Notes under the pieces: generated by a model
Told to the model about the DNA's origin: nothing
The model's input: the letters and a program-made list of their open reading frames with translations, nothing else
The model's database searches: none
Assembly (NCBI GenBank): GCA_002429615.1
Contig: DJAN01000179.1
Location: 602 to 64,601, forward strand
DNA length: 64,000 nt
Reading direction: 5' to 3'
From: Lysobacteraceae bacterium UBA6001
GTDB lineage: Bacteria > Pseudomonadota > Gammaproteobacteria > Xanthomonadales > Xanthomonadaceae
In this document: piece after piece, positions 13,040-30,537 of the stretch
Layout of the letters: each line of letters starts with the position of its first letter
How positions within the stretch are numbered: position 1 is the first letter of the stretch
Position numbers and translations under genes: made by a program

Positions 13040-14281
13040 TCAATGCGGCCAACGGCGGAAGATCAACGAGGTGTTGATCCCACCGAAAGCGAAATTGTTG
13101 CTGGCGACGTAGTCGGTTTCGAGCGTGCGACCTTCGCCGGTGACGTAGTCGAGCGCGGCGCAGCGCGGATCGACCTGGTCCAGGTTCACGGTGGGGGCGA
13201 ACCAGCCTTCGCGCATCATCTCGATGCTCAACCAGGCTTCGAAGGCACCACAGGCGCCGAGCATGTGGCCGACATAGCTCTTCAGCGAGCTGATCGGCAC
13301 GCCGCCGCCGAACACCTGCGCGGTGGCCTGCGTCTCGGCGATGTCGCCGTGGTCGGTCGCGGTGCCATGCGCGTTCACGTAGCCGATCCGCGCCGCGTCC
13401 AGGCCGGCGTCGGCGAGTGCCAGGCGCATCGCCTGCGCCATGGTGTCGGCGCTGGGCTGGGTGACGTGCTGGCCGTCGCTGTTGGTGCCGTAGCCGACGA
13501 TCTCGGCCAGGATGTTCGCGCCGCGTGCCTGCGCGTGTTCAAGCTCCTCCAGCACCAGGGTGCAGGCGCCCTCGCCCAGCACCAGGCCGTCGCGGTTGGC
13601 GTCGAACGGGCGCGGCGTGGTCTCCGGCGCGTCGTTGCGCACGCTGGTGGCGAACAGGGTGTCGAACACCGCCGCGGCGGTGGCGTCGAGCTGCTCGGCA
13701 CCGCCGCACAGCATCACCGTCTGCTTGCCGCTGCGGATCGCCTCGTAGCCCGAGCCCACGCCCTGGCTGCCGGAGGTACAGGCGCTGGAGGTGGTGATGA
13801 CGCGGCCGGTGAGGCCGAAGAACACGCCGATGTTCACCGGCGCGGTGTGGCTCATCATCTTCAGGTAGGTGGTGGCGCTGATGCCGGCCGTGGTGTGCTC
13901 GTTGAGCATGCGGCCGAATTCGGCGGTGGCGTCATGCGCGCCCGAGGAGGAGCCATACGACACGCCGGCCATGCCACTGCGCAGCACCGGATGGCCGAGC
14001 AGGCCGGCTGCTTCCAGCGCCAGTTCGGTGGCGCGCACCGACATCACCGCGACCCGCCCCATGCTGCGGGTGGTCTTGCGGTTGTAGTGCGGCGGCAGCT
14101 CGAACGGCTGCGCCGGCGCGGCCAGGCGCGTGTTCAGCCCTTCATAGACGTCCCATTCCGGCAGCCGCCGCACGGCGTTGCGGCACTCGCGCAGGTGCAG
14201 GTGGATGCTCGGCCAGTCGTGGCCCAGCGGGCTGATCGCGCCTGCGCCGGTGACCACCACGCGCTTGTCGTTGCTGCTCAT
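13040..14281 (-). CDS. Aryl-polyene beta-ketoacyl-ACP synthase (ApeO-like)
   Basis: FabF-type ketosynthase of 413 aa that should elongate the polyene chain on ACP. The nucleophile Cys168 lies in TSSACTSG, with His305 in NAHGTATDHGD and His339 in SYVGHMLGACG. FAFGGINTSLIF closes the thiolase fold. It overlaps the ketoreductase gene by 4 nt (ATGA) and is the last biosynthetic gene of the operon. In characterised aryl-polyene systems this enzyme pairs with a chain-length-factor-like partner, here probably the product of 28625-29365. Confidence 0.93.
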   Translation of the reverse strand: MSSNDKRVVVTGAGAISPLGHDWPSIHLHLRECRNAVRRLPEWDVYEGLNTRLAAPAQPFELPPHYNRKTTRSMGRVAVMSVRATELALEAAGLLGHPVLRSGMAGVSYGSSSGAHDATAEFGRMLNEHTTAGISATTYLKMMSHTAPVNIGVFFGLTGRVITTSSACTSGSQGVGSGYEAIRSGKQTVMLCGGAEQLDATAAAVFDTLFATSVRNDAPETTPRPFDANRDGLVLGEGACTLVLEELEHAQARGANILAEIVGYGTNSDGQHVTQPSADTMAQAMRLALADAGLDAARIGYVNAHGTATDHGDIAETQATAQVFGGGVPISSLKSYVGHMLGACGAFEAWLSIEMMREGWFAPTVNLDQVDPRCAALDYVTGEGRTLETDYVASNNFAFGGINTSLIFRRWPH

Positions 14282-15012
14282 CCCACCAGTCCTCCGTTGA
14301 CCGAAATCACCTGCCGGGTGATGTACCCGGCGTCCTCCGACAGCAGGAAGGTCACCGCGGCGGCGACTTCCTCCGGGCGGCCGAGGCGACGCGCCGGCAC
14401 CAGCGGCAGCGCATGCTCGACCACTTCGGCGTCCAGCATCTCGGTGTCGATCAGCCCGGGGGCGACGCAGTTCACCGTGATCGCACGGCTCGCCAGCTCC
14501 AGCGCCAGCGCCTTGGTCGCGCCGATGATGCCGGCCTTGGCCGCGCTGTAGTTGGTCTGCCCGCGATTGCCCACCAGCCCCGACACCGAGGACAGGGTGA
14601 CGATGCGGCCGGGCTTGCGCCGGCGCACCATCGGCATCACCAGCGGATTGAGCACGTTGAAGAAGCCATCCAGGTTGGTATGCACGACCGCATCCCAGTC
14701 CTCGCCGCTCATCGCCGGGAAGGCGTTGTCGCGGGCGATGCCGGCATTGCACACCACGCCGTAGTAGGCGCCGTGCGCCTCCACGTCGGCGAGCAGCGCC
14801 GCGGCGCTGGCGGCGCGATCGGCCACATCGAAACTGAGCACGCGCGCCTGCCGGCCCAGCGCGTTGATCTGCGCGGCCACTGCCTCGGCGTCCTCGATGC
14901 GGCTGCGGCAATGCACCACCACGTCATGGCCGGCCTCGGCCACGCGCAGGGCGATCGCCCGCCCGATGCCGCGACTGGCCCCGGTCACCAGGACCGTCGT
15001 CTCCCCCTTCAT
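14278..15012 (-). CDS. 3-ketoacyl-ACP reductase (FabG/ApeQ-like)
   Basis: NADPH-dependent ketoreductase of 244 aa for the polyene chain. The Rossmann motif is GASRGIG (residues 11-17), CNAG marks the cofactor site, and the catalytic set is a Ser in TLSSVSG with Tyr155 and Lys159 in YSAAKAG. It ends with the SDR-type QVISVNGG. It overlaps neighbours by 4 nt on both sides, which fixes the start and the operon order. Confidence 0.94.
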   Translation of the reverse strand: MKGETTVLVTGASRGIGRAIALRVAEAGHDVVVHCRSRIEDAEAVAAQINALGRQARVLSFDVADRAASAAALLADVEAHGAYYGVVCNAGIARDNAFPAMSGEDWDAVVHTNLDGFFNVLNPLVMPMVRRRKPGRIVTLSSVSGLVGNRGQTNYSAAKAGIIGATKALALELASRAITVNCVAPGLIDTEMLDAEVVEHALPLVPARRLGRPEEVAAAVTFLLSEDAGYITRQVISVNGGLVG

Positions 15013-15464
15013 CCCTCACCACTCTCCAGATAAGCCGCCGCATCCGGCGGCTCGAAAACCGAAATATTCGCTGTCGCCAGCACTGCATCGTCCTGCAGGA
15101 TGCGGCAGGCGAACATGCCCAGGCCATTGTCGCCCAACAGTTCGCATCTTGCCTCCACCCGCAGGAGGGCGCCGGCGTCGAAGCGCGGCGTATGCGCCTG
15201 GTAGCGGCGCGTGCCGAGCAGGAAACCGATCGACGGCTCCTGGCCACGGCCACGGGCGCGATGCCCGGCCCAGGCGGCGACCGTCTGCGCCATGTACTCC
15301 ACGCCCATCCACGCCGGCACGCCGAGTGCGTCGCCGAACAGCGCATCGGCCGGCACGCGCACCTGGGCGCTGACGCTTTCTTCGTCGCAGGCCAGCAGGC
15401 GGTCGATCAACCGCATCATGCCGCGGTGCGGGATGACCTGTTCGATGTCGTAGTGCGGGGTCAT
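15009..15464 (-). CDS. Hotdog-fold 3-hydroxyacyl-ACP dehydratase (ApeP-like)
   Basis: Dehydratase of 151 aa, expected to make the trans double bonds of the polyene. The N-terminus holds VIPHRGMMRLID with the likely catalytic His13, followed by GVEYMAQTVAAWAG, a FabA/FabZ-like helix. ATG 15464 is chosen because it begins just before the conserved motif; the open frame upstream is spurious. A second dehydratase-like domain is fused to the AMP-ligase of this operon; in characterised aryl-polyene systems two such subunits cooperate. Confidence 0.88.
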   Translation of the reverse strand: MTPHYDIEQVIPHRGMMRLIDRLLACDEESVSAQVRVPADALFGDALGVPAWMGVEYMAQTVAAWAGHRARGRGQEPSIGFLLGTRRYQAHTPRFDAGALLRVEARCELLGDNGLGMFACRILQDDAVLATANISVFEPPDAAAYLESGEG

Positions 15465-15469
15465 CCGGA

Positions 15470-16651
15470 TCAATCCCTGGAAAAAGCCAGCACGGCGTTG
15501 CTGCCGCCGAAGGCGAAGGAATGGCTGAGCAGGTGGCGCGGAACGCGCGCGGCGCTTTCGCCCGGGGCGACCAGCGCCAGCGCGGGCAGCTCGGGGTCGG
15601 CCTCGCCATCCCACCAGTGCGGGGGCAGCAGCCCGGCCGGGTTGCGCGCCAGCGTCAGCCAGCACAGCGCGGCCTCGATCGCGCCGGCCGCGCCCAGGGT
15701 GTGGCCGGTCAACGGCTTGGTCGCGCTGGCCGGCACCGGGGCGCCGAACACCGCCTGCATCGCACGGCTCTCCATCGCATCGTTCTGGCGGGTGGCGGTG
15801 CCGTGCAGGTTCACGTAGTCGATCTGCGCCGGCGACAGGCCGGCGCGCGCCAGCGCCTGCTGGATGGCGGCGATGGCACCGGTGCCCGCCGGATCCGGCG
15901 CGGACAGATGATGTGCGTCGGAGGTTTCGCTCCAGCCGGACAATCGCACCGCGCCGGGCGCACGGGTCATCAGGAACAGCGCCGCGCCCTCGCCGATGTT
16001 GATGCCGTCGCGATGGCGCGAGAACGGATTGCAGCGCCGCGCGGACACCGATTCCAGCGCGCTGAAGCCTTCCACGGTGAAGCGGCACAGCGAATCGGCG
16101 CCGCCGGCGATCACCGCGTCGACGATGCCGGCGCGCAGCAGGCGGGCGGCGGACATCATCGCCTTGGCACTGGAGGAACAGGCGGTGGACACCGTCCATG
16201 CCGGCCCACGCGCGCCGCTGAGCGCACGCACGAAACGCGCAGGCGTGCCCATCTCCTGCTGCGCATAGTGGAAGCCGGACGGCCATGGCTGGCCGAGCGC
16301 GCGCTGGTGCAGCGCATGCTCCGCCTCGCCGATGCCCGAGGTGCTGGTGCCGAGCACCACCGCGACGCGCGACGCGCCGTGCTGGTCGATCGCCGCGGCC
16401 ACCGCCGGGGCGATCTGCGCGTAGGCCTGGCGCAACAGCGCGTTGTTGCGCCCGCGAAGCGCGACCGGCTGGTCATCCATCGCCGGCAGCGCTGACAGCA
16501 CCCGGCCCAGCACCAGCGGTCGGCCCGGCGTCACCGCATCGGTGGCGGCATTGGCCGGTGCGGCGGTGTCGAACAGGGCGCGACCGACCGCGTCGGCGTC
16601 GCCGCCGAGCGCACAGACCACGCCCATTTCATTCAGAAAAACATCGTTCAC
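15470..16651 (-). CDS. Beta-ketoacyl-ACP synthase (ApeR-like)
   Basis: Second full ketosynthase of 393 aa in the operon. Cys158 is in TVSTACSSSAK, and His residues are in NLHGTATRQND and LTGHTLGAAGA. FAFGGSNAVLAF is at the C-terminus. GTG 16651 starts inside the upstream stop (GTGA overlap), which gives the family N-terminus VNDVFLNEMGVVCALG. It may perform the first condensation on the aryl starter. Confidence 0.92.
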   Translation of the reverse strand: MNDVFLNEMGVVCALGGDADAVGRALFDTAAPANAATDAVTPGRPLVLGRVLSALPAMDDQPVALRGRNNALLRQAYAQIAPAVAAAIDQHGASRVAVVLGTSTSGIGEAEHALHQRALGQPWPSGFHYAQQEMGTPARFVRALSGARGPAWTVSTACSSSAKAMMSAARLLRAGIVDAVIAGGADSLCRFTVEGFSALESVSARRCNPFSRHRDGINIGEGAALFLMTRAPGAVRLSGWSETSDAHHLSAPDPAGTGAIAAIQQALARAGLSPAQIDYVNLHGTATRQNDAMESRAMQAVFGAPVPASATKPLTGHTLGAAGAIEAALCWLTLARNPAGLLPPHWWDGEADPELPALALVAPGESAARVPRHLLSHSFAFGGSNAVLAFSRD

Positions 16652-17208
16652 TGCGGACTCGATTCCAGCGGGGCCGATTCGATTTCCAGGGCATAGCCCT
16701 CGGCCAGGTTGCGCAGGGTCTGGTGATTGGCATCGCGGCGCTCCAGCACCAGCCAGGGTTGGCCCTCGTGTTCGAGCTGGCGCGTGCCGGCCTGCTCGAC
16801 CAGGGTCCAGCCATCGGGCAATGCCTTGCGCACCGCGTCCGCCGGCCACAACGCGAACTGCAGGTCGTCGAGCACGCGCTCGCCGCGCACCTGCGGCGGC
16901 AACCATGGCGCGCGCTGCTGTTCCAGCGTATGGCCATCCCAGCGCAGGGTCACGCCGGTCTGGCCCAGCGCCTGCACCGCCAGCCGCACTTCGTCCGCGT
17001 CGGCTTCGAGCAGCGCGTCGAGCGTGCTGCGATGAGTGCCGTAGCTGAACACCAGGCGCTGCTGCAGTGCCAACGCCTGACCAAGGTCCGCCGGCGCCAG
17101 CCGCAACGGCGGCAGCGCGATGGCCGGCGCGCGGACACGCGCACCGGCGCAGGCGGCGAGCAGCAGCACGCCGGCCAGCAGCAGGGCGTGGGCGATCAGG
17201 CGCCGCAC
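16648..17208 (-). CDS. DUF3261-type lipoprotein of the pigment operon
   Basis: The 186-aa product has signal peptide and lipobox LLLAACAG, then a single globular domain with FSYGTHRSTLDALLEAD and DDLQFALWPADAVRKALP. This kind of lipoprotein is a regular member of aryl-polyene clusters, together with a LolA-like carrier and an MMPL pump, and is presumed to help place the pigment in the outer membrane. GTG 17208 overlaps the halogenase-like gene by 13 nt. Confidence 0.85.
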   Translation of the reverse strand: MRRLIAHALLLAGVLLLAACAGARVRAPAIALPPLRLAPADLGQALALQQRLVFSYGTHRSTLDALLEADADEVRLAVQALGQTGVTLRWDGHTLEQQRAPWLPPQVRGERVLDDLQFALWPADAVRKALPDGWTLVEQAGTRQLEHEGQPWLVLERRDANHQTLRNLAEGYALEIESAPLESSPQ

Positions 17209-18437
17209 AGTTCCTCCAGCACGCGCAGGCGGCGACCGCTGGGGTCGGCCACATAGGGGTTGTTTCGATCCCAGGCGTAGCCGGCGAGGATGGAGCAGAT
17301 CATGCCGCGGATGTCCGGCTGCTGTTCGGGATGGAAGATGATCTTCTGGAAACCGCCGGCATACCAGGATTCGACAAAGCGGCGGAACGCCTTCACGCCG
17401 TAGCGCAGCGGCTCGTCGAAGTCGGCGGCCCAGTCCACGTGCTGGCCGGCATAGCGGCGCGCGAGGCAGTCCGCGGCCAGCTGCGCGGACTTGAAGGCGA
17501 TGGTGACGCCGGAGGAGAACACCGGGTCGAGGAACTCGCCGGCGTTGCCGAGCAGCGCATAGCCTTCGCCATGCAGCGCGCTGACGTTGGCCGAGTAGCC
17601 GGTGATGCGGCGTACCGGCAGCACCGCCCATTCGGCCTTGGCGAGCAGGCGGGTCAGGTTCGGATCCTCGCCCACAATGGCCTGCAGCTTCTGCAGGTCG
17701 TCGCCCGGGTAGCGCTCGAAGAACGAAGGCTCGGCGACCACGCCCAGCGAGCAGCAGCCGTTGGAGAACGGAATCGTCCAGTACCACACGTCCACGTGTT
17801 CGGGATGGGTGGTGATCAGGATCTTGTTGCGGTCGAAGCCCGCTTCCGGCGCGATGTGGTCGCGCACGTGGGTGAAGATCGCACCGCGCACCGGGAAGTT
17901 GGACGGCGATTCGAGCTGCAGCAGGCGCGGCAGCAGACGGCCGAAGCCGCTGGCATCGAGCACGAAGTCCGCTTCCAGGGTGTACTCGCGGCCGTCCGGA
18001 TCGCGCACGTCCACGCTCGGCTGCGCGCCTGGCCGCATCGCCAGCACCTCGTGGCCGAAACGCAGGTCGGCGCCTTGGCGCTGCGCGCCCTTGGCCAGCA
18101 CGTGGTCGAAGTCAGCGCGCTGTACCTGGTAGGTGGTGCCCCAGCCGGGAGAGAACTTGTCGCGGAAGTCGAACTGGGTGGTGCGCTCGCCACGCACGAA
18201 CGCCGCGCCATTCTTGTACTGGAAGCCGGCCTGCACGACATCCTGCAGCAGGCCGGCCTGCTCGATGTACTCCATGCTCTGCGGCAGCAGGCTCTCGCCG
18301 ATGGAGAAGCGCGGGAACTGCTCGCGCTCGATCATCACCACCTGGCGGCCCTGCCGGCGCAGCAGCGCGGCGGCGACCGAACCGGCGGGGCCGGCGCCAA
18401 CGATGAGGATTTCAGTTCTTTCCGTAGAACGGGTCAT
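17196..18437 (-). CDS. Flavin-dependent halogenase-like enzyme of xanthomonadin cluster
   Basis: FAD enzyme of 413 aa. The dinucleotide motif is VGAGPAGS (about residues 13-20), and GESLLP follows. The halogenase signature WxWxIP is present as WYWTIP (218-223), and a Lys at 75 in FQYKNGAAF sits where the catalytic lysine of flavin halogenases is placed. LLGNAGEFLDPVFSSG is the FAD-binding loop. Xanthomonadins carry bromine, so this is the natural candidate for ring or chain halogenation; a plain oxidoreductase role is the alternative. It lies within the overlapping gene string. Confidence 0.85.
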   Translation of the reverse strand: MTRSTERTEILIVGAGPAGSVAAALLRRQGRQVVMIEREQFPRFSIGESLLPQSMEYIEQAGLLQDVVQAGFQYKNGAAFVRGERTTQFDFRDKFSPGWGTTYQVQRADFDHVLAKGAQRQGADLRFGHEVLAMRPGAQPSVDVRDPDGREYTLEADFVLDASGFGRLLPRLLQLESPSNFPVRGAIFTHVRDHIAPEAGFDRNKILITTHPEHVDVWYWTIPFSNGCCSLGVVAEPSFFERYPGDDLQKLQAIVGEDPNLTRLLAKAEWAVLPVRRITGYSANVSALHGEGYALLGNAGEFLDPVFSSGVTIAFKSAQLAADCLARRYAGQHVDWAADFDEPLRYGVKAFRRFVESWYAGGFQKIIFHPEQQPDIRGMICSILAGYAWDRNNPYVADPSGRRLRVLEELCGA

Positions 18438-18464
18438 GCGAGAGGCCTTCGTGGGAGGAGGAAG

Positions 18465-20840
18465 TCAGGCGTGCGGCGCGGGCCGGAACAGCGGGGTGAT
18501 CAGCCACACCAGGCCGATGCCGAACAGCAGGGTCAGGCCGAACGCGCGCAGCGCCGGCGTGGACGACAGTGCCAGCAGGCCGAACGACAGCCAGGTGCTG
18601 GCCGCGCCGACGCACACCGACAACCACGCGCTGCGGTCGCCGCGGTGTTCGAGCAGGAAGATGCCGTAGTCGATGCCCATGCCGAGCAGCAGCAGGAGCG
18701 CCAGCACGTTGAACAGCAGCAGCGGCTGGCCGAACCAGCCCAGCAGCGCGACGGTGAGCAGGCCGGCCAGCAACGTGGGCGTGATCACCCGCCAGGACTG
18801 GCCGCGATAGCGCCAGGCCAGCACGCCGAACACCAGCACCACGCCGGCCAGCAGCAATGCGCCCATCATCCGGCGGTAGTGGCCGAGCAGCTGCGAGAAA
18901 TCCGCGGTGCGGTCGACCCAGCGCACGCCGTCCAGGCCATCGGCCTGCGCGCGCAGCGCGGCCAGCGCGTCGGCGCGGGAGAGATCGTCGACCATCACCA
19001 CCGAGGCCCGGCCGTTGCCGAGCTTGCCCAGCCACAGGTGGCGGAACGGCAACGAGACCGGATCGTGCAGGAAGGTCTCGATGCCAGCCGGCGCGGCATA
19101 GGCCGGACGGGCCAGCGTCTCGCCGGTGGCCGCGCCGACCTGCGCCAGCACGCTGCTTTCGATGCGCGCGGTCAGCGCGGCATCGGCCTGCTGGCGGGAC
19201 TGCGCCGGCCACCAGTCGCTGATCGCCTGGTGCCCGCCGATGCGGCCCTGCGCTTCAAGTGCGTCGAGCTTGCCGACCAGCGCCTGTTCGCGCTGCAGCA
19301 CCTGTTCGGCATCGGCGCCCTGCACCAGGAAGAACTGCGCCGGGCTCGGCATGCCGAGCAGCCGGCCGACCTCGATCTGCTGCGCCATCAGCGCCGGCGG
19401 CGAGGATTGCAGGCTGCGCAGATCGTCGTTGGGCTGCACGCGCAGCAGGCCGCCGACGATCACCACCAGCGCCACCACGCCCAGTACCGCGGCGACCTTG
19501 CCCCTGCCCCGTCCCAGCCGCGGCCAGCGATCGAGCGTGCCGCCGAGCCAATGCGCGAAGCGGGTCTCGCGCACGCGGCCCTTGTCGAGCAGCGGGAACC
19601 ACGCGATCACGGTGAGGAATGCGGCGGCCAGGCCCACCACCGAGAACAGCGCCATCTGGCGCAGGCCCGGGAACGGCGCCAGTCCCAACGCCAGATAGGC
19701 CAGCGCGCTGGTCAGCAGCGCCAGCCACAACCCGGGCAGCAGGTGCCGCAGCAGCTGCCAGCGGCTGGTATCCGGTTCGGCCTGTCGCGAGCCGAACCAG
19801 TGGATGCCGTAGTCCTCGGCCACGCCGACCAGGCTGGCGCCGAACACCAGGGTCAGCAGATGCACCTTGCCGAACACCAGCGCGGTGACCGATAGCGCGG
19901 TCGCGCAGCCGATCAGCAGCGACATCGCCACCAGCAGGATCGGGCGCAGCGAACGGAACGCCAGCCATACCAGCAGCAGCACCGCCGCCAGCGACCCCCA
20001 GCCGATGGTGTTGATCTCGAAGTTGGCCTGCGCGGCGGCGGCTTCGGCATGCAGCGGGACACCGGCGCGCAGTTCGTGCAGGTCCGGTACGGCGGTGCGC
20101 GCGGCCGCGGCGGCGGCATCCAGCGCCTGGCCGATGCGCTGCTCGCCGTCGAGGCGGAACGCCGAATCGCGGGTCTGGAACTGCATCAGCGCCCAGTAAC
20201 GGCCATCGGCCTGCAGCAGGCCGTCGTCGCCCACGCGCAGGCCGGTGCCGGCGGCGCGCGCCTGCCACCACTGCGACCACAGCCCGAGCGGATCGCGGTT
20301 CCACTCGGTCAAGCGCGGCGCGCCGAGAGGGCCATACAGCGCGGCCAGCGCCTGCTGGCCCAGCGCGGCTTCGTCGCCGCCCTGCAGACGCGCGCGCTGC
20401 GCGTCGGTGAGCAGGCGGTCGCGATAGGGCGCGTAGAAGGCGCGTGCCTGGTCGAACCAGCCCTGTACGGAGGCGTTCTCCTCCAGCGGCAGCGTGCCGG
20501 CGCGATCCGCGTCATGGAAGGCGCGCGAGTACGCGGCCTGCGCGGCCTTGGCGCCCTCGGCGCTGTCGCTGCCGAGCAGCACCACGACCTGGCGGGCGCT
20601 GTTGTCGGCGATCAGGCGGGTGGCGTCGGACAGCAGGCGGTCGTTGGCATCCTGCGGCAGCAGCGCCAGCACGTCGCTGTCGACATGCGCGCCGCGCCAG
20701 AAACTCCACTGGTGCACGGCCACCGCCGCGACCACCAGCAGCCACGCGATGCCTACCCAACGCCAATGGCGGTGCAGGCGGGCGTCCACGCCCGCCGCGT
20801 GCGGCGGCAACTCAGTCAAGGCTGTGTTCCTCGTCGGCAT
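18465..20840 (-). CDS. MMPL/RND-family exporter of the pigment operon
   Basis: Inner-membrane transporter of 791 aa. Its layout is one N-terminal helix (WVGIAWLLVVAAVAV), a large periplasmic loop, five helices, a second large loop, and five more helices, which is the duplicated MMPL plan. AEDYGIHWF in the first half and GMGIDYGIFLLEH in the second carry the conserved acidic residue and Tyr of the proton path. ATG 20840 overlaps the LolA-like gene by 29 nt. Expected cargo is the aryl polyene or its lipid ester. Confidence 0.9.
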   Translation of the reverse strand: MPTRNTALTELPPHAAGVDARLHRHWRWVGIAWLLVVAAVAVHQWSFWRGAHVDSDVLALLPQDANDRLLSDATRLIADNSARQVVVLLGSDSAEGAKAAQAAYSRAFHDADRAGTLPLEENASVQGWFDQARAFYAPYRDRLLTDAQRARLQGGDEAALGQQALAALYGPLGAPRLTEWNRDPLGLWSQWWQARAAGTGLRVGDDGLLQADGRYWALMQFQTRDSAFRLDGEQRIGQALDAAAAAARTAVPDLHELRAGVPLHAEAAAAQANFEINTIGWGSLAAVLLLVWLAFRSLRPILLVAMSLLIGCATALSVTALVFGKVHLLTLVFGASLVGVAEDYGIHWFGSRQAEPDTSRWQLLRHLLPGLWLALLTSALAYLALGLAPFPGLRQMALFSVVGLAAAFLTVIAWFPLLDKGRVRETRFAHWLGGTLDRWPRLGRGRGKVAAVLGVVALVVIVGGLLRVQPNDDLRSLQSSPPALMAQQIEVGRLLGMPSPAQFFLVQGADAEQVLQREQALVGKLDALEAQGRIGGHQAISDWWPAQSRQQADAALTARIESSVLAQVGAATGETLARPAYAAPAGIETFLHDPVSLPFRHLWLGKLGNGRASVVMVDDLSRADALAALRAQADGLDGVRWVDRTADFSQLLGHYRRMMGALLLAGVVLVFGVLAWRYRGQSWRVITPTLLAGLLTVALLGWFGQPLLLFNVLALLLLLGMGIDYGIFLLEHRGDRSAWLSVCVGAASTWLSFGLLALSSTPALRAFGLTLLFGIGLVWLITPLFRPAPHA

Positions 20841-21429
20841 CCAGCGGCGGTGCCAGGCGGAAGTTGTCGAATGTCAGCCGCGTGCGGTCGTGATTGGCTT
20901 CCTCGATCTCGACCTTGCGCACGTACTTGTCGCCTTCCAGCTGCAGCGAGGCGAAAGCCTTGGCCAGCATCGGCGAGCGCGGCGTGAGGTGCAGCCGCCA
21001 GCCGTTGTCCGGCAGCAGCTCGGCGCGTACCTCGAAGCTGGCCGACATCGCCTGCACGTCGCCGCTCATCAGCGCGAACATCATCGCGTTGATCGCGCGC
21101 ATCGCCGGCTGCTGGCGGCCATCGACCTCGACCTGCACGCTGCCATCGGCCTGGCGGCTGAGGATGCGGTCACGGGTCAGCACCACGTCGGACGGGAACG
21201 GCTTGAGCGTGCGCCAGATCACCCCGCGCTCCTGCGCCAGCACGAACTGGCCCTGCGAACGCAGCGGGTTGCGGAAGCCGGCGACCTGCTTCTCCTGGAC
21301 GAAATCGGCGCGCAGCAGCGCCGGGCGCGCGACCCGCTGCTGCACCTGCGCCAGTTCCGGCGCGGGCGCGGCGAAGACGGGCAGCGCCGGCAGCACGGCC
21401 AGCGCGAGGATCAGGACGAACGGCTTCAT
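20812..21429 (-). CDS. LolA-like outer-membrane carrier protein
   Basis: Periplasmic protein of 205 aa with signal peptide (MKPFVLILALAVLPALPVFAA) and LolA-fold motifs ADFVQEKQVAGF, GQFVLAQERGVIWRTLKPF and LTPRSPMLAKAFASLQLEG. It probably ferries a hydrophobic product between the MMPL pump and the outer membrane. The start overlaps the thioesterase stop as ATGA. Confidence 0.88.
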   Translation of the reverse strand: MKPFVLILALAVLPALPVFAAPAPELAQVQQRVARPALLRADFVQEKQVAGFRNPLRSQGQFVLAQERGVIWRTLKPFPSDVVLTRDRILSRQADGSVQVEVDGRQQPAMRAINAMMFALMSGDVQAMSASFEVRAELLPDNGWRLHLTPRSPMLAKAFASLQLEGDKYVRKVEIEEANHDRTRLTFDNFRLAPPLDADEEHSLD

Positions 21430-24319: not shown

Positions 24320-25074
24320 GCCGACGCTCCACGCAGGCGGCGCCACAGCAGGCGCGGCGAGCGCCGCAGCATGCCGAAGAACAGGCGGGTGTGCATGCGG
24401 CTGATGCGCACGTTGTCGCGCCATACGTCGAAGTGCGAAACGCCGTCGCGCGGATAGGTGACGCGGGTGGGCAGGTTGATGACGCCGATGCCGCGCCAGA
24501 ACAGGCGCACGATCATGTCGGTATCGAAATCCATGCGGCGGCCGATGGGCTCTTCTTCCATCAGGCGCAGCACCGGCGGCAGCGGGTAGACGCGGAAGCC
24601 GCACATCGAGTCGCGGATCTGCAGCGACCAGGTGTTGATCCACACCCAGATGTGGGTGGCATAGCGGCCGTACAGACGACCCTTGGGCACGCTCTGGTCG
24701 TACTGCGGGACACCCGAGACGATGTGCGAGGGCGCCTGCCGTGCGTGATCGAGGAAGCGCGGGATATCGGCCGGATCATGCTGGCCGTCGGCGTCGATCT
24801 GCAGCACATGGCTGTAGCCCAGGCGCGCGGCCTCGGCAAAGCCGGCCAGCACCGCCCCGCCCTTTCCCTGGTTGCACGGCAGGCGCAGCAGGCGCACGCG
24901 CGGCGCATGCGCGCTGGCCAGCGTGTCGAGCACGGCGGCGCAGGAAGCACGCGAACCGTCGTCCACCAGCAGGCAGTCTTCGCCGCTGGCAAGCACGCCC
25001 TCGACCATGCCGCCAATGGCATGCTCGTGGTCGTAGACCGGAATCAGCACCAGCGGGCGAAAGGCGTCAGGCAT
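24316..25074 (-). CDS. Family 2 glycosyltransferase of the pigment operon
   Basis: The 252-aa GT-A enzyme shows LIPVYDHEHAI, LLVDDGS, NQGKGGAVLAGF and the metal-binding QIDADGQHDP. The C-terminus lacks clear membrane helices. It may glycosylate the aryl head group or the lipid acceptor before acylation. ATG 25074 overlaps the AMP-ligase by 8 nt. The adjacent LPLAT-type gene suggests a coupled glycosyl/acyl decoration step. Confidence 0.88.
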   Translation of the reverse strand: MPDAFRPLVLIPVYDHEHAIGGMVEGVLASGEDCLLVDDGSRASCAAVLDTLASAHAPRVRLLRLPCNQGKGGAVLAGFAEAARLGYSHVLQIDADGQHDPADIPRFLDHARQAPSHIVSGVPQYDQSVPKGRLYGRYATHIWVWINTWSLQIRDSMCGFRVYPLPPVLRLMEEEPIGRRMDFDTDMIVRLFWRGIGVINLPTRVTYPRDGVSHFDVWRDNVRISRMHTRLFFGMLRRSPRLLWRRLRGASA

Positions 25075-26743
25075 CGCCGAACACCACCTTGCCGCTAGCA
25101 TGCGGGCCGTGGCCCGACACCAGGCGGAACGCCAGCGTCTGCTGCGTGGCATTCCACTGCAGCGACATGCGCACGTTGTCGCCCGGACGCAGCACGCGCT
25201 GGAACTTCAGAATGTCCATGCGCTGGAACGGCGCGTCGATGGCGAACGCCTCGCGCCCGAAATGGATGGCCCAGTCCAGCTGCGCGACGCCCGGCAGGAT
25301 GGCGGCCTGCGGGAAATGGCCATCGAAGGCGGCCAGGTTGGCATCAAGCAGGATGTCCAGCTCCGCCGCCTCGGCCGCGCGCAGCTGCCACTGCGGCTGC
25401 GGATAGACCGGGCGGAACAGCGTGACCAGCGCCGGTTCGGTGACCTTGCCCTGCGCGTTGAGCGGCAGTGCTTCGACAAAGCGCCAGCGGCGTGGGCGGG
25501 TGACGGCGTCATGGCTGTCGGCCAGGTGCGCGGACAAGCGTCGCGAGAATTCGCGACGTCCGTGTTCGCGCAACACCTGCCAGCCTTCGGCGCTGGGCAC
25601 CACGACCGCGCCCAGCACGCTGCGCGCGCCAGCCAGCACCAGCACGCGCGAATCGGCCACGCCGGGGTAGCGCGCCAGCTGCTGCTGGAGCGCATCGAGC
25701 GACACCCGGCGTTCCTCGATCTTGACGATGCGGTCCGCGCGACCGAGCAGACGGAAGCCACCGCCGGCCAGCGCTTCGGCGCGATCCTCGCTGCGCCACC
25801 AATGCGGCTGCGCCAGGTGCGGCGAGTTCACTTCCAGCTGGCCGGCGTCGTCGATGCGCCACTGCACGTTCGGCAACGGGGTCCAGTGCGGTGCCTCGAC
25901 CTCCCAGCGTCGCCAGGCGATGCCGCCGGTCTCGCTGCTGCCGAACACTTCGGTGGGTGCCACGCCCAGGCGTTGGCGCACGTCGTGCGCGGACTCGGCC
26001 GGCAACGGACCACCGGAGGAGAACACCGCGCGCAGGCGTCCCTGCAGCACCGCCCAGTCCAGCTGTTCGGGAATGCGCTTGAGATGGGCCGGCGTGGCCA
26101 CCAGCACGGCGTCGTGCCCGGCCATCGCCGCGACCATGTCCTCGTGGAAGAACGCGCGCGGCATCGTCGTGCGCCCGGCCGCCAGCGGCCACAGCACGCG
26201 GAACAGCAGGCCATAGATGTGCTGGTGCGAGACCGTGCCGTGCACGCGCGCGCCTTCGGCCAGTTCGCCGAAGGCGGCCTGCAGCGCTTCGACTTCGCGC
26301 GCGAGCTGGCGCAGGCACTTGGCGATCGCCGCCGGCTCGCCGGTGCTGCCGGAGGTGAACATCACCACCTGCGCGGCGTCTTCGTCGAGCGCGTTCAATG
26401 CGGCGGGATGGCCGTTGCCCGGCGCGGCGCGCAGCGGGCGCAGCGTGGCCGGCAGATCGCCGGCGAAGCCGTGCACGCGCGCGGCCAGGCGTTCCAGCGT
26501 GCCGGGCAGGTCGTCCCCCGGCAGGTAGACGCGCTTGCCGGCGTGCCAGGCACCGAACAACGCGGCGGAAAATTCCGCCTCGTCGGCCAGATACAGGGCC
26601 CAGTCTTCGCCTTCGGCGGCCGCGAAGGCGGCATACCAGTCGGCGACGCGCTGGCGCCAGGCGATGTGGTCGAGTACGGGGCTTACCGGGCGGCCGCTGA
26701 CATCGGCCAGCGCCAGTCGATCCAGCGCGATCCACTCAGCCAT
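25067..26743 (-). CDS. AMP-dependent acyl/aryl-ACP ligase fused to a hotdog dehydratase domain
   Basis: The 558-aa product has two parts. Residues 1 to about 440 form an adenylating enzyme with VVMFTSGSTGEP, FGSSETGGIAWR and a C-terminal lysine region LPLNAQGKVTE. The last 110 or so residues hold FDGHFPQAAILPGVAQLDWAI, a FabA/FabZ-type dehydratase motif. In many aryl-polyene clusters these are two proteins (ApeH- and ApeI-like); here they are one chain. The ligase should load the aryl starter acid on ACP. Confidence 0.9.
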   Translation of the reverse strand: MAEWIALDRLALADVSGRPVSPVLDHIAWRQRVADWYAAFAAAEGEDWALYLADEAEFSAALFGAWHAGKRVYLPGDDLPGTLERLAARVHGFAGDLPATLRPLRAAPGNGHPAALNALDEDAAQVVMFTSGSTGEPAAIAKCLRQLAREVEALQAAFGELAEGARVHGTVSHQHIYGLLFRVLWPLAAGRTTMPRAFFHEDMVAAMAGHDAVLVATPAHLKRIPEQLDWAVLQGRLRAVFSSGGPLPAESAHDVRQRLGVAPTEVFGSSETGGIAWRRWEVEAPHWTPLPNVQWRIDDAGQLEVNSPHLAQPHWWRSEDRAEALAGGGFRLLGRADRIVKIEERRVSLDALQQQLARYPGVADSRVLVLAGARSVLGAVVVPSAEGWQVLREHGRREFSRRLSAHLADSHDAVTRPRRWRFVEALPLNAQGKVTEPALVTLFRPVYPQPQWQLRAAEAAELDILLDANLAAFDGHFPQAAILPGVAQLDWAIHFGREAFAIDAPFQRMDILKFQRVLRPGDNVRMSLQWNATQQTLAFRLVSGHGPHASGKVVFGDA

Positions 26744-27287
26744 GACCGTGCGCCGCCCGTACCCGCTGCCGCACGCACCACTCCACCGCGAACAACACAC
26801 CCATCATCACGTAAGCCAACAGTCCGTTGTAAAGCGCCCAGATCCGCTCCGGCGCCCACAACGCAGTGGCGAGCGCGAGCGTGCCGTTGAGCACGAAGAA
26901 GCCACACCATACCTGGGTGACCCGGCGGGTATAGGCCACCGCCTGGGGTGGCAGGTCCGGTTCGCTGAGGCGCGCGATGCGCTCCACCGCGCTGGGCGGA
27001 AAGCGCAGGCTGACCGAAAACACCGCCAGCATCACCACGTTCACCAGCGCCGGATACAGCTTCAGCGGCAGCGCCTGGTTGAACACGGTGGCCAGCAGGG
27101 CCAGCACGCCGGCACCGGCGGAGGCCGCCAGCCACACCGGCTGCCGCGTGGCGACCGCGCGCAGCAGCGCCAGCGCGAACAGCAGCAGCGCCAGCCAACG
27201 CGGCTCGAATCGCCCCATCGCCAGGTAGACCAGCACGGGGTAGGCCAGCGACAGCAACAGCAGCGCGGCCGCGCGCAGACGGTTCAC
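26736..27287 (-). CDS. COG4648-type membrane protein of the pigment operon
   Basis: The 183-aa protein has about five to six hydrophobic segments (AALLLLSLAYPVLVYLA, WLALLLFALALLRAV, AGAGVLALLATVF, VTQVWCGFFVLNGTLALATAL, GLLAYVMMGVLFAVEW). Members of this family accompany aryl-polyene ACP genes and are of unknown role. Start codon is GTG. It overlaps the ligase by 8 nt. Confidence 0.85.
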   Translation of the reverse strand: MNRLRAAALLLLSLAYPVLVYLAMGRFEPRWLALLLFALALLRAVATRQPVWLAASAGAGVLALLATVFNQALPLKLYPALVNVVMLAVFSVSLRFPPSAVERIARLSEPDLPPQAVAYTRRVTQVWCGFFVLNGTLALATALWAPERIWALYNGLLAYVMMGVLFAVEWCVRQRVRAAHGHG

Positions 27288-27302
27288 GGCCGCGTCCCGG
27301 GG

Positions 27303-27557
27303 TCAGGCAGCCTGGTCGCGCAGCAGCCCGTGCAGCACGTCGATGATGTCCTGCACGGTACGCACCGACTTGAAGGCATCCGGCTGCAGGCTGCGGCCGA
27401 GCAGCGGCTTGAGCTGCACGATCAGGTCCACCGCGTCGATGCTGTCGATGTCCAGATCCTCGTACAGCCGGGTTTCCAGCTGGATCCGCGAAGGATCGAT
27501 CTCGAAGCTCTCATGCAGGATCGCCACGATGCGGTCGAAAAGTTCGTTCTTGGTCAT
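27303..27557 (-). CDS. Acyl carrier protein (second, ApeF-like)
   Basis: 84-aa ACP beginning MTKNELFDRI. The phosphopantetheine Ser39 is in DLDIDSIDAVDL. ATG 27557 is preferred to TTG 27566 because of the better start and the upstream GAAGAG. It needs a 4'-phosphopantetheinyl transferase; one is encoded at 52252-52872. Confidence 0.93.
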   Translation of the reverse strand: MTKNELFDRIVAILHESFEIDPSRIQLETRLYEDLDIDSIDAVDLIVQLKPLLGRSLQPDAFKSVRTVQDIIDVLHGLLRDQAA

Positions 27558-27581
27558 GCTCTTCAATCTCTGCTCAGGCGC

Positions 27582-27842
27582 TCACGCCGGCTGGTGCGAG
27601 GCCACGAATTCGGCCAGCGCACGCACGCTGGCGAAGTGCTTGCGGGTTTCCTGCGAATCGGCGGACAGGCTCACGTTGTAACGCTTCTGCAGCGCCAGGC
27701 CGAGTTCGAGCGCGTCGATCGAATCCAGGCCCAGCCCTTCCACGAACAGCGGCGCCGTCGGATCGATGTCCTCGGGGGTGATGTCTTCCAGCGACAGCGA
27801 TGAAATGATCAATTCCTTGATCTCGTGCTCAAGTGCCTGCAC
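27582..27842 (-). CDS. Acyl carrier protein (first, ApeE-like)
   Basis: 86-aa ACP with Ser41 in GLGLDSIDALELG. Start is GTG 27842, overlapping the upstream acyltransferase gene by 14 nt. Two consecutive ACPs are a fixed feature of aryl-polyene clusters; one is thought to bind the aryl starter and growing chain with the ketosynthase pair. Confidence 0.92.
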   Translation of the reverse strand: MQALEHEIKELIISSLSLEDITPEDIDPTAPLFVEGLGLDSIDALELGLALQKRYNVSLSADSQETRKHFASVRALAEFVASHQPA

Positions 27843-28632
27843 GCGCGGTTTCTCCCGAAAAGTATTGGCAAAGATGATCGTTGAGGCGTCTTACCGCCAG
27901 GACTTCACCCCCTGGCGTGGCCGCGACTCCGTCCACGAACGGCGCGATCGGCAGGTCATCCCCGACCTCGATCGACATGTGAAATCGCCGTGAAGGCACA
28001 CGATACCATTTCTGGCCCTTGACCAAGGTCGGCGGGGCGCAGGAAATCTTGACCGGTGTGATGTTCAGGCGGCCACGCACGGCGATGTTCGCCGCGCCCC
28101 GCTGCAGGCGCATCGGCTGCCCCGGCTCGCTGCGGGTGCCCTCCGGGAAAATCACCAGGTTGCCGCCGCCGCGCACCGCGGCGATGCAGTCCTCGACCAG
28201 CCCGGCGCCCTCGTCGTTGGCGATGTAGCCGGCGGCGCGAACCGGTGCGCGCATGAACGGGTTGCGCGCCACGCCGACCTTCACCACGCAGTCGGCGTCG
28301 GGCAGCAGGGAAATCAGGAACACCACGTCGATCAGCGTGGGATGGTTGGCGAGGATGAGCAGGCCGCGACGCTGAAGCCGTTCACGTCCGCGGATCTCAT
28401 AGGTCAGCACGCCCAGCGTATGCATCAGCCAGACGTGGCCGGCGAAGCTGCGTTGGATCCAGCGCCGCGCCAGCTTGCGGCGGCGCGCCGGGTCGCGCAC
28501 GCCGAGCTGCAGCAGCGGAAACACGCATAGCCGCAGCACCAGCCCACCGATGCCGAAGGCGAGAAAGCTCAGCCCGGTACCGACCACGCGCCAGGCATGG
28601 TCCAGCCGCGCTGGCAGCGTCCGCTCACCCAT
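27829..28632 (-). CDS. 1-acylglycerol-3-phosphate-type acyltransferase (ApeD-like)
   Basis: LPLAT enzyme of 267 aa with an N-terminal membrane anchor (LSFLAFGIGGLVLRLCVFPLL). The catalytic H-x4-D is in LANHPTLIDVVF, and the acceptor-binding FPEGTRSEPGQ follows. It may transfer the polyene acyl group to a lipid head. ATG 28632 overlaps the ketosynthase-like gene by 8 nt. Confidence 0.9.
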   Translation of the reverse strand: MGERTLPARLDHAWRVVGTGLSFLAFGIGGLVLRLCVFPLLQLGVRDPARRRKLARRWIQRSFAGHVWLMHTLGVLTYEIRGRERLQRRGLLILANHPTLIDVVFLISLLPDADCVVKVGVARNPFMRAPVRAAGYIANDEGAGLVEDCIAAVRGGGNLVIFPEGTRSEPGQPMRLQRGAANIAVRGRLNITPVKISCAPPTLVKGQKWYRVPSRRFHMSIEVGDDLPIAPFVDGVAATPGGEVLAVRRLNDHLCQYFSGETARAGT

Positions 28633-29365
28633 GGCGACGCCAGCGCCAGCGCTGGTCTTCGACCGCCACATCCAGCGCGGCGTCACCCTTCAGCAGGAAG
28701 CGGTGCACCGCCAGGCCGTGCTGCAGCACCGGGTCCGGCGCCGCGGCCGGCGCATCGGCCTCCCAGCACAGGCTCAGCCGCTCGCCGGGCTGGTCCGGCG
28801 CGGCCAGGCGCCAGCACCAGGCATAGGGGTGGGCGGGTTCGTCGGCGAAATCCGCATAAACTTCCGGCAAAGGGCCGTCATAGCAGACCAGCAGCACTTC
28901 CGGCGCACCATCCGCCAGCAGTGCGGCAGCCTCGACGCAGGCGTTCTCCACCGACGCGGTACCGGCGGCCAGGGCGAGGTAGTTGCCATGCCGCTTGCGC
29001 ACGATCGAATACAGCGCCGCCACCGCGTTATGGACCGAGAGACTGAAGGCGGTCGGCGACAACGGCTCGGCCTGGCCCAGCGCGCGCAGCAGTTCGACCG
29101 AGCCGGCCACGTCGCCATGACGGGATACGAAGACCAGCGGAATCTGCTCCCGGGCGGGCGAAATATCGCAATCGTCGGTGGCGCTGATCGCCATCCGGCC
29201 CAGGCGGTCGATTCTTCGCCGCATCACCGGCGGCACATCGGCCAGGGGCGGTGCCCCTTCGCCGACCGGGGCGGTCGCCTCGCCTTGCGCCCAGGCCAGC
29301 CAGTCTTGCGCCAGGGGCAACCCCGGCGCCCAGGCCGACCAACCGGTGACAGAGAATTCGATCAT
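28625..29365 (-). CDS. Ketosynthase-like chain-length-factor protein (ApeC-like), first gene of the pigment operon
   Basis: 246-aa protein matching only the N-terminal half of a ketosynthase. Where a catalytic Cys would be expected the sequence reads AAGTASVENAC, so the nucleophile position seems to be Ser rather than Cys. It is therefore a probable non-catalytic partner of the full ketosynthase at 13040-14281. ATG 29365 begins the operon; the divergent chorismatase gene begins 168 bp away. Confidence 0.83.
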   Translation of the reverse strand: MIEFSVTGWSAWAPGLPLAQDWLAWAQGEATAPVGEGAPPLADVPPVMRRRIDRLGRMAISATDDCDISPAREQIPLVFVSRHGDVAGSVELLRALGQAEPLSPTAFSLSVHNAVAALYSIVRKRHGNYLALAAGTASVENACVEAAALLADGAPEVLLVCYDGPLPEVYADFADEPAHPYAWCWRLAAPDQPGERLSLCWEADAPAAAPDPVLQHGLAVHRFLLKGDAALDVAVEDQRWRWRRHG

Positions 29366-29383
29366 GGCGGGAGCAGCGGCCTT

Positions 29384-29410
29384 GTTCCGGAAAATGAATG
29401 ATTCCGGAAC
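29384..29410. promoter_or_regulatory. Paired palindrome in the xan/xanB2 divergent promoter region
   Basis: GTTCCGGAA (29384-29392) and TTCCGGAAC (29402-29410) form a perfect inverted repeat with a 9-bp spacer. Each arm contains the self-palindrome TTCCGGAA, so the site is also a direct repeat with 17-bp periodicity. It lies 19-45 bp upstream of the operon's first ATG and about 125 bp from xanB2, a plausible operator or rho-independent hairpin of the leader. Confidence 0.5.
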
Positions 29411-29532
29411 ACCCGGCATTCGATGGCGGGGATCGTGCCAGCGGGCGTTCCGGCACGTCAATGCGCGAAGCGCAGTGCCGATGTGACGGCGCGCTATGAT
29501 GCCGCGCCCGGCAACACCCCACTGGAACGCGC

Positions 29533-30537
29533 TTGTCCCACCCGATCCACCTGCATTGTGCTTTCATCAGCGCCGAGGCGGCCGCCGAACAGCTGCACGA
29601 TCCGCGCGTGCTGGCCGCGGTGGATTTCTCGCTGCAACCGCTGACGGCGGAACAGGCTGCCGACCCACGCCGGCTGCGCGTGCCGTTGGAACCGTTGGGG
29701 ACCGGCGTGGTGGAGATCTGGCGCGGCGACACCGCGGTCCAGCACGGCCGTGAAGGCGACATCGCCTGGGCCGAGAACGCCGAGCTGCAGTTCGGCGCCC
29801 TGGTGCTGCACGAGGACGACGAGCTCGACCTGGAAGCCGCCAGCGCGCGCGCCTACGCCCGCATGAACCAGTTCATCGCCGAGCGTGGCTATCCGCACGT
29901 GCTGCGCATCTGGAACTACCTCGACGGCCTGACCGAAGGCGATGACGACGCCGAACGCTACCGGCGCTTCTGCGTCGGCCGGGTGCGCGGGCTGGAGCGG
30001 GTCGAAGAGGCCCGCCTGCCGGCGGCGACCTGCATCGGCAGCTTCGGCGGCCCGCGCCAGCTGCTGGTGTACTGGCTGGCCGCGCGCAGTCCCGGCGTGG
30101 CGCTGGAAAACCCGCGCCAGGTCAGCGCCTACCGCTACCCGCGCCAGTACGGCCCGCAGTCGCCGAGCTTCGCCCGGGCGATGCTGCCGCCGCCGGGCAG
30201 CCAGGCGCCGCTGCTGCTGTCGGGTACCGCCAGCATCGTCGGCCATGCCACCGCGCACCTGGGCGACGTCGGTGCGCAGCTGGACGAGATCTTCGTCAAC
30301 ATCGAGGCGCTGCGCGGCGCGGCGGCCGATCGCAGCGACGGCATGCCGCCCGGCATCGACGACGCCGGCACCCTGCTCAAGGTCTATGTGCGCGACCGCG
30401 AGGCGCTGCCGCAGGTGGCCGCGGCACTGGACGCGCGCTTCGGGGCGCGGGTGCCGCGCCTGCTGCTGCATGCCGAGGTCTGCCGGCGCGAGCTGGCGGT
30501 GGAGATCGAAGGCGTGCTGGGCAACCCGGCGATCTGA
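29533..30537 (+). CDS. xanB2: XanB2-type chorismatase / 3- and 4-hydroxybenzoate synthase
   Basis: Bifunctional chorismatase that converts chorismate to 3-hydroxybenzoate and 4-hydroxybenzoate; in xanthomonads 3-HBA feeds the pigment and 4-HBA feeds ubiquinone. The 334-aa protein shows family features: IWNYLDGLTEGDDDAERYRRFCVGR, RQVSAYRYPRQYGPQSPSFARA, LLLSGTASIVGH and VYVRDREALPQV. TTG 29533 is the only good start before the conserved N-terminus. It is divergent from the xanthomonadin operon, fitting its role as starter supplier. Confidence 0.92.
   Translation: MSHPIHLHCAFISAEAAAEQLHDPRVLAAVDFSLQPLTAEQAADPRRLRVPLEPLGTGVVEIWRGDTAVQHGREGDIAWAENAELQFGALVLHEDDELDLEAASARAYARMNQFIAERGYPHVLRIWNYLDGLTEGDDDAERYRRFCVGRVRGLERVEEARLPAATCIGSFGGPRQLLVYWLAARSPGVALENPRQVSAYRYPRQYGPQSPSFARAMLPPPGSQAPLLLSGTASIVGHATAHLGDVGAQLDEIFVNIEALRGAAADRSDGMPPGIDDAGTLLKVYVRDREALPQVAAALDARFGARVPRLLLHAEVCRRELAVEIEGVLGNPAI

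Follow-up and report, generated by a model that had tools for sequence, protein, structure and literature searches.

The described gene clusters closest to the locus considered here are the aryl polyene (ape) operon of Escherichia coli CFT073, for which the published gene table gives the order C D E F G H I J K L M N O P Q R (PMC8253772; papers are cited here by PubMed Central number), and the xanthomonadin (xan, or pig) cluster of Xanthomonas and Lysobacter. In L. enzymogenes the latter comprises 17 open reading frames (ORFs) in a different layout, including an ORF5/xanB2 homologue, deletion of which lowers the pigment level by about 90% with rescue by 3-hydroxybenzoic acid (3-HBA) (PMC3691225). 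Here, we analyze a stretch of 64,000 nucleotides (hereafter, the window) from Lysobacteraceae bacterium UBA6001 (Xanthomonadaceae; assembly GCA_002429615.1, contig DJAN01000179.1, forward-strand positions 602 to 64,601), in which a long minus-strand operon of pigment genes lies next to a divergently oriented xanB2. A preliminary description made from the sequence alone had taken it for a complete xanthomonadin (aryl polyene) locus; the aryl polyene assignment and the completeness were retained, while the name xanthomonadin disagrees with ape-like gene content and order. In our assessment, the locus very probably represents an intact 18-gene operon of the apeC-R type, supplemented with genes for an ammonia-lyase (HAL) and a flavoprotein (FAD), with xanB2 adjacent and divergent, and situated at a chromosomal address occupied by xan in a number of relatives.

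Gene content, order and packing of the operon

Family assignments were made with Pfam and NCBIfam models, and identities were derived by comparison with the ape annotation of E. coli CFT073. Re-derived from the window sequence, 18 minus-strand genes form an unbroken string from 29365 down to 13040 in the order C D E F G H-I Jgt Jat HAL K L M FAD N O P Q R (Jgt and Jat being the glycosyltransferase and acyltransferase halves of apeJ; Table 1). It corresponds one-to-one to E. coli apeC-R with identities from 28% (N, L and P) to 63% (E), and genes overlap comparably in both operons; the differences consist in fusion of H with I, splitting of J into two genes, insertion of HAL and FAD, the adjacent xanB2, and the lack within the locus, to which the search for them was confined, of apeA and apeB found in E. 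coli. The inventory thus covers the ketosynthase/chain-length-factor pair, two acyl carrier proteins, ligase, two dehydratases, ketoreductase, glycosyltransferase and acyltransferase, thioesterase, and LolA, MMPL and DUF3261 proteins in collinear arrangement. The catalytic motifs searched for were present in both ketosynthases (Cys and His), both acyl carrier proteins, ketoreductase, ligase, ApeI and HAL; one C-terminal pattern composed for ApeO remained unmatched, while its Cys and His motifs were matched.

The comparison of gene order with characterized xan and ape clusters, suggested in the preliminary description, turned out in favor of ape. The canonical xan cluster of a relative (locus L100 of genome G237; G and L numbers are our handles for genomes and loci) runs O, C, Jgt, FAD, then on the opposite strand Q, M, L, Jat, D, E, and further FAD, xanB2 and ligase. 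Among the six xan genomes with xanB2 surroundings available, a ligase match lies between xanB2 and the flanking gene dpp in five (G017, G043, G237, G220 and G029) and about 41 kb from xanB2 in the sixth (G137), whereas in the window only 72 bp separate xanB2 from dpp and no ligase occupies this place, which is that of XanA2. The xan ketosynthase used as a query reached E-values below 1e-150 in 163 of 247 genomes of the family versus 1e-68 in the window, which is the level of the ApeO paralogue. Since gene content and order match E. coli apeC-R and canonical xan clusters of relatives are arranged differently, and since the ketosynthase test fails as well, the xanthomonadin label was rejected. 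No second xan or ape locus was found in the window's genome by the ApeI model and xan ketosynthase searches (the assembly is 90% complete).

Presence of ape in the family sample of 247 genomes was scored by the ligase/ApeI fusion at full length or nearly so, and 37 of them, the window's included, possess it. All 36 relatives have the same gene order as far as their loci reach (L056 and L064 end early at contig ends, leaving 34 for the FAD count). With HAL as a query independent of the fusion, the best 80 of 582 confirmed candidates (hereafter, named loci) were also inspected, and the same order was observed for most of them, in Burkholderiales, Myxococcota, Pseudomonas and others. Within this set, 69 of 73 scorable loci have the H-I fusion and 72 of 74 have a split J. 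Separate H and I characterize L128, where a sequencing frameshift may be responsible, L182, and both Vibrionaceae loci, L187 and L191, in which J is also fused, as in E. coli. Moreover, both domains of the fusion occur in all 120 database matches listed of 7028. The fusion therefore cannot be regarded as an oddity, as had been proposed, although the 36 family relatives were themselves found through it; nor can the co-occurrence of two acyltransferase families, because the ape operon of E. coli holds both types, ApeD and the second half of ApeJ. The FAD gene was not found in 5 of the 34 family loci and was found in 52 of the 72 named loci reaching N or O, while just 5 of the 80 named loci, all from Stenotrophomonas, include xanB2. 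HAL-containing loci of Stenotrophomonas, Pseudoxanthomonas, Burkholderiales, Myxococcota and Pseudomonas are thus similar to the window in order, fusion, split J and HAL itself, and differ from it in the rarity of xanB2 and the inconstancy of FAD. The subtype is ape with an ammonia-lyase and, usually, a halogenase-like flavoprotein. Such a cluster is nothing unusual in itself, the type being known and widespread.

Several records stand somewhat apart. Relatives of the operon's HAL (70-78% identity) are located outside any recognizable ape operon in five named loci (L134 from Xanthomonas bonasiae, L150, L166, L174 and L188). HAL-type ape operons with fused H-I are found in Myxococcota (Archangium, Myxococcus and Corallococcus; L139, L140, L141, L145, L146 and L177), and two of them, L139 and L145, group in a tree among betaproteobacterial operons with weak local support, which suggests transfer. 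A full-length fusion of 65% identity (P0035) carries the source label Bacillus subtilis, possibly a contaminated record.

The same description spoke of one overlapping string of 16 genes with nearly all neighbors overlapping by 4-29 nt. The string is indeed continuous and very tight; it contains 18 genes, and with the chosen starts such overlaps occur at 14 of 17 junctions (in nt: C/D 8, D/E 14, G/H-I 8, H-I/Jgt 8, Jgt/Jat 4, Jat/HAL 11, HAL/K 11, K/L 4, L/M 29, FAD/N 13, N/O 4, O/P 4, P/Q 4 and Q/R 4), the other three being gaps of 15-27 nt (E/F 24, or 15 if TTG 27566 is the start; F/G 15; M/FAD 27). The O/P overlap becomes a 5-nt gap if apeP starts from ATG 15464. Of 579 junctions measurable in the 36 family relatives, 439 are overlaps and 551 do not exceed 30 nt (values of 300 nt or more were excluded, and the codon nearest to the expected place was taken as the start, so that single values are approximate), with positive median gaps only at E/F, F/G and M/FAD. 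In the E. coli ape operon 11 of 15 junctions overlap versus 3 of 17 co-directional pairs without pseudogenes in one other stretch of the same chromosome. The tight packing is therefore more than chance and not particular to the window's genome. Short junctions here and in relatives are consistent with the translational coupling proposed earlier, which probably extends over much of the string. Long plus-strand ORFs within the operon (e.g., 25100-26890 and 17067-19895) are antisense to genes with family matches and were judged artefacts of high GC content.

Splitting of the string into several transcription units with internal starts at E/F, F/G and M/FAD seems doubtful, though it has some ground: exactly these junctions are the loosest in relatives as well, and the absence of FAD from some family loci marks M/FAD as a site of insertion or loss. 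Against it stand the shortness of the three gaps in the window and the result of a scan for sigma-70-like sites, which found none between 12500 and 31500 where 1.3 were expected by chance and hence had no power to exclude internal promoters.

Starter supply and the proposed pathway

Judging from the family assignments, ApeH would activate an aryl acid and load it onto ApeE or ApeF, and ApeO-ApeC and ApeR would elongate it with malonyl units. Reduction by ApeQ and dehydration by ApeI and ApeP would then yield a conjugated polyene, to be released by ApeK, attached to lipid by ApeD and both ApeJ halves, and carried to the outer membrane by ApeL, ApeM and ApeN. The expected product is a yellow, carotenoid-like pigment with a photoprotective or antioxidant role, possibly halogenated by the FAD protein. 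The W.W.IP motif of this protein, which we take to be a halogenase signature, is present in all 29 family copies as well as in the window.

The product of the divergent xanB2, predicted in the preliminary description to supply 3-HBA, does belong to the chorismatase family: PF21168 matched it above the cut-off (7e-39), while TIGR04444 (9e-67) scored 225 bits versus a cut-off of 325. According to the alignments, its Gly in SGTAS and Cys in EVC coincide with those of the Hyg5 structure, FkbO having Ala at both places; these two residues presumably distinguish 3-HBA formers. Supply of 3-HBA to the pigment by XanB2 appears plausible. Together with 3-HBA the enzyme would form 4-hydroxybenzoic acid (4-HBA), needed also for ubiquinone, since no UbiC match was found in the window's own genome. 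Such a role, described for XanB2 in Xanthomonas (PMC3949708), is probable here, because UbiC matches at an E-value of 1e-3 are limited to two of the 247 family genomes, one of them above cut-off.

XanB2 matches occur in 230 of the 247 genomes, and their distribution among the 37 ape carriers is uneven. In six (G000, G044, G077, G194, G232 and G244), xanB2 is directly upstream of apeC; in nine (G071, G088, G098, G113, G123, G144, G162, G178 and G208, where G088 and G113 are only 85% complete), no match was found at 1e-20; and in the others it is located elsewhere in the genome. HAL, on the contrary, accompanies the operon in all 34 family loci reaching it and ranks among the better conserved proteins, with a conserved Tyr-His pair at the presumed selectivity position. 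It has no match in the E. coli ape operon and none at 1e-8 in annotated xan loci. The nine genomes lacking a xanB2 match and the constancy of the lyase leave 3-HBA as the sole starter unproven.

A cinnamate-type starter, which the lyase may supply, is a live alternative to 3-HBA, because HAL is present in every family locus reaching it and because tyrosine ammonia-lyase (TAL) activity is proven for FlxA, encoded in the flexirubin cluster, despite a HAL-like selectivity motif (PMC3992019). The two systems share an ammonia-lyase within a type II aryl polyene pathway, as well as LolA-like and exporter genes; they differ in that none of the 18 genes is dialkylresorcinol-like (the search being restricted to these genes) and that FlxA and FlxB models score below their cut-offs. 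It is conceivable on this basis that, as in the flexirubin pathway, starter units come chiefly from the lyase, in the form of 4-coumarate or cinnamate, rather than from XanB2, and the best NCBIfam match of the ligase, 4-coumarate-CoA ligase, points in the same direction, though far below cut-off. We nevertheless hold this to be possible rather than likely. The Tyr-His pair is not known from TAL or phenylalanine ammonia-lyase enzymes, and a histidine-directed or inactive protein may be considered. Besides, the E. coli operon dispenses with HAL and has 4-HBA as its predicted starter, and ApeH of Xenorhabdus loads 4-HBA in vitro (PMC8253772).

Two circumstances also weigh against our reading of the locus as a whole. 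Assignment of HAL to its family does not fix its substrate, and the NCBIfam models of bagremycin TAL, HutH and FlxA all remain below cut-off (325 of 700 bits for FlxA). ApeH, in turn, shares 30% identity with its E. coli counterpart and 33-35% with the ligase adjacent to xanB2 in xan loci, so that the substrate of this protein is not readable from identity.

A related observation concerns seven Stenotrophomonas ape genomes (G071, G098, G123, G144, G162, G178 and G208) in which neither XanB2 nor UbiC nor PF01947 chorismate lyase gave a match. UbiA scores above cut-off in the three checked (G162, G178 and G208), and the ape ammonia-lyase is one candidate source of 4-hydroxybenzoate for ubiquinone in all seven. 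Inspection by eye of short loci around ubiA in G178 and in the window's genome recognized no UbiC beside it. A XanB2 match is likewise missing from eight further family genomes without an ape operon.

Alternative pigment operons at one chromosomal address

To the left of the operon the window carries w8443, w8787 and w12100, and to the right xanB2, dpp, w33076, w33674, polA, w37855, w38283 and uvrD. In G017, the same genes on both sides bracket a canonical xan cluster. Likewise, w8787 and w12100 lie to the left of xan in G043, with xanB2, ligase and dpp on the right (where the fetched stretch ends), and in G237, with the genes from dpp to w38283 on the right. In Stenotrophomonas G232 and G194, the same flanks enclose an ape operon (in G194 dpp is across the contig origin, if the contig is circular), and the series dpp-xanB2-ape is also present in S. 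koreensis DSM 17805 (L133) and S. panacihumi (L114). In Pseudoxanthomonas G116 (L198), w8787-w12100 directly adjoin dpp with no pigment operon between them; xanB2 is beyond uvrD and ape elsewhere. G205 (L197) of the Pseudoxanthomonas genus has the same right side, with xanB2 beyond uvrD and ape elsewhere in the genome. Three states of the address were thus observed: with xan, with ape and empty. Its use does not extend to the whole family: for 20 of the 23 xan genomes in the flank-gene tree described below, the distance between xanB2 and dpp is below 6 kb in 12 (including G001, whose xan ketosynthase is on a separate contig), 26-40 kb in 4 and above 160 kb in 4. As to its 28 ape genomes, the fusion and dpp are no more than about 12 kb apart in 10 of them (seven from Stenotrophomonas and three from the window's genus, G194 being counted across the contig origin); the distance is 18.5 kb in G005, and in the other 17 the fusion is remote from dpp or on a different contig.

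None of the 247 genomes combines the xan ketosynthase at the level below 1e-150 with the ape fusion; the Fisher value of 6e-21 takes no account of relatedness and serves as a description only. In 34 of the 37 ape genomes, the xan ketosynthase finds matches at the ApeO level only (4e-61 to 1e-75), and three (G040, G109 and G113) have no match at 1e-60; G014 shows an ApeO-level match without the ape fusion. Both types occur in different species of four genera (g17, g30, g34 and g45 in our numbering). The dpp (flank-gene) tree was built for 51 selected genomes, 28 ape and 23 xan, this one gene serving as a proxy for the species tree, and the xan/ape label changes on it at least nine times, all changes being forced by well-supported branches.

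The closest view of such a change is offered by G220 (xan) and G232 (ape), which are sisters in this tree (100/100). Their flanks align in blocks of 87-96% identity, for the most part 92-96%, interrupted by some insertions (the left flank of G220 has one of about 3 kb); the alignment ends just past w12100 and picks up just before dpp. G220 has 12.7 kb between these points and G232 has 21.4 kb, and the only alignable parts of this DNA are about 70% identical, with one piece in xanB2. In G220, both the xan ketosynthase and XanB2 cluster with their G029 counterparts, and this XanB2 branch belongs with xan loci, whereas the Stenotrophomonas ape loci have a XanB2 group of their own (98). As G232 comes from an uncultured Stenotrophomonas, a chimeric assembly is conceivable, yet L133 and L114 mentioned above show the same arrangement. 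G220 may have either gained or retained its xan cluster.

In the window's genus, exchange is inferred from disagreeing trees and not from a close pair. On the dpp tree the genus is nested among xan carriers (with G017 at 100/99, then with G043 at 98/93); in the 50-row tree of ape genes, however, it is sister to Stenotrophomonas (100). XanB2 of the window is on a long branch outside the ape-linked group of Stenotrophomonas, and for this reason its gene may have been left over from a former xan cassette.

Considering these data jointly, we lean, without insisting, toward the view that around Stenotrophomonas and the window's genus the interval from w12100 to dpp is a pigment-cassette address where whole operons swap, probably through recombination in the flanks, and where the lyase offers a second starter route. 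In the sister pair this would mean a xan cassette of about 13 kb versus an ape cassette of about 21 kb, with each type in Stenotrophomonas having its own xanB2 lineage; the window would represent the ape state, with xan in its nearest flank-gene relatives. If so, the second starter route would let the pigment survive loss of xanB2. Alternatively, xan and ape might have been side by side in an ancestor, followed by differential loss rather than replacement. Either history results in alternative states, the branching of ape within Stenotrophomonas agrees roughly with the flank-gene tree, and both clusters occur also away from the address; this scenario is nonetheless unlikely, as not a single genome of the sample keeps both clusters, at least nine changes of state are required, and G220 and G232 switch abruptly between matching flanks with xanB2 copies from different groups. 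Quite improbable is the remaining option, a xanthomonadin cluster fed only by 3-HBA from XanB2: this would agree with the proximity of xanB2 (167 bp) and its Hyg5-like Gly and Cys, with the similarity of ApeH to the xan ligase, and with a halogenase-like gene, as in Xanthomonas clusters (PMC3691225), but gene order and content, the ApeO-level ketosynthase match and the nine ape genomes without a xanB2 match all contradict it. The xan/pig cluster shares enzyme types, xanB2, a halogenase-like gene (in its Xanthomonas versions) and, in several relatives, the address with the locus described here, and differs from it in order and strand layout.

It is the exchange at a common address, not the gene cluster itself, that makes the locus of interest. 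This points to yellow pigmentation, a classical character in the taxonomy of the family, being maintained in part through exchange of whole, differently built operons at one address instead of vertical descent of a single cluster, and the pair G220/G232 makes the mechanism testable. Annotation of every such locus as "xanthomonadin" or "arylpolyene" hides the phenomenon. The Patil group has reportedly carried out genomic work on pigment loci of this family. No description of xan/ape exchange was found in the open-access literature searched, and the accessible portions of PMC9966250, PMC11035887 and PMC4742617 contain nothing on it. Deletion and frameshift of the pigment cluster are described in Xanthomonas (PMC10667641). 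A phytobiome survey reports aryl polyene clusters strongly conserved by phylogeny with no evident subdivision (PMC10469690); lack of subdivision would hide the exchange, and the conservation is in some tension with it.

Coordinates and neighboring genes

Table 1. Features of the pigment locus and its flanks (window coordinates; E-values are given after model names)
Feature	Position	Strand	Remarks
xanB2, FkbO/Hyg5/XanB2-family chorismatase	29533..30537	+	TTG start as called; divergent from the operon
Intergenic region, 167 bp, divergent	29366..29532		presumed promoter region of xanB2 and the operon
apeC, chain-length-factor-like truncated ketosynthase	28625..29365	-	PF13723 3e-60; C[ST]S motif not found
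apeD, lysophospholipid acyltransferase	27829..28632	-	PF01553 4e-17; HPTLID and FPEGT motifs
apeE, acyl carrier protein	27582..27842	-	PF00550 and NF006617 above cut-off; DSID
apeF, acyl carrier protein	27303..27557	-	PF00550 and NF003757 above cut-off; DSID
apeG, membrane protein (COG4648-like)	26736..27287	-	55% to E. coli apeG product over 102 aa (BLAST); no Pfam/NCBIfam match at 1e-3
apeHI, AMP-forming aryl acid ligase and ApeI dehydratase, 558 aa	25067..26743	-	PF00501 2e-20; PF22818 (ApeI) 2e-17
apeJ, glycosyltransferase half, family 2	24316..25074	-	PF00535 7e-19; 56% to N-terminal half of E. coli ApeJ
apeJ, acyltransferase half, lipid A-type, separate gene	23369..24319	-	GTG start; PF03279 3e-9; 37% to C-terminal half of E. 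coli ApeJ
HAL, aromatic amino acid ammonia-lyase	21835..23379	-	PF00221 1e-160; GASGDL (MIO) motif intact
apeK, thioesterase	21426..21845	-	PF13279 1e-13; 56% to E. coli
apeL, LolA-like carrier	20812..21429	-	PF03548 6e-12; NF053544 LolA2_flexi 4e-20, below its cut-off
apeM, MMPL/RND-type exporter	18465..20840	-	PF03176 just at cut-off; 31% to E. coli ApeM
FAD, halogenase/geranylgeranyl-reductase superfamily flavoprotein	17196..18437	-	WYWTIP; PF04820 5e-24, above cut-off; NF033113 (CmlS) 5e-40, far below cut-off
apeN, DUF3261 lipoprotein-like	16648..17208	-	PF11659 2e-32
apeO, ketosynthase	15470..16651	-	CSSS and HGTAT; NF006618 above cut-off
apeP, dehydratase	15009..15473	-	PF22817 (ApeP-like) 3e-18; TTG start, ATG at 15464 possible
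apeQ, 3-ketoacyl-ACP reductase	14278..15012	-	TIGR01831 and NF004200 above cut-off
apeR, ketosynthase	13040..14281	-	SACTSG and HGTAT; NF006587 above cut-off; 61% to E. coli ApeR
Small exported-looking protein	12571..13011	-	source names "excinuclease ATPase subunit" or "YbjQ family"
w12100, last gene common to the left flank of either pigment operon	12100..12510	-	flank comparison
w8787, left flank, 1123-aa ankyrin-repeat-like protein (by eye)	8787..12158	-	76-79% identical and adjoining xan in L195 and L199
dpp, right flank, peptidase-like (by eye)	30610..33000	+	87% in L196, 83% in L199, 79% in L101; right of xan each time

The gene for the small exported-looking protein directly following apeR is present in 27 of the 34 family ape loci reaching it and has no match in five flank-annotated xan loci; the names given to it in the sources do not explain its position beside ape. 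The large gene w8787 is conserved next to the pigment address regardless of whether a genome has xan or ape.

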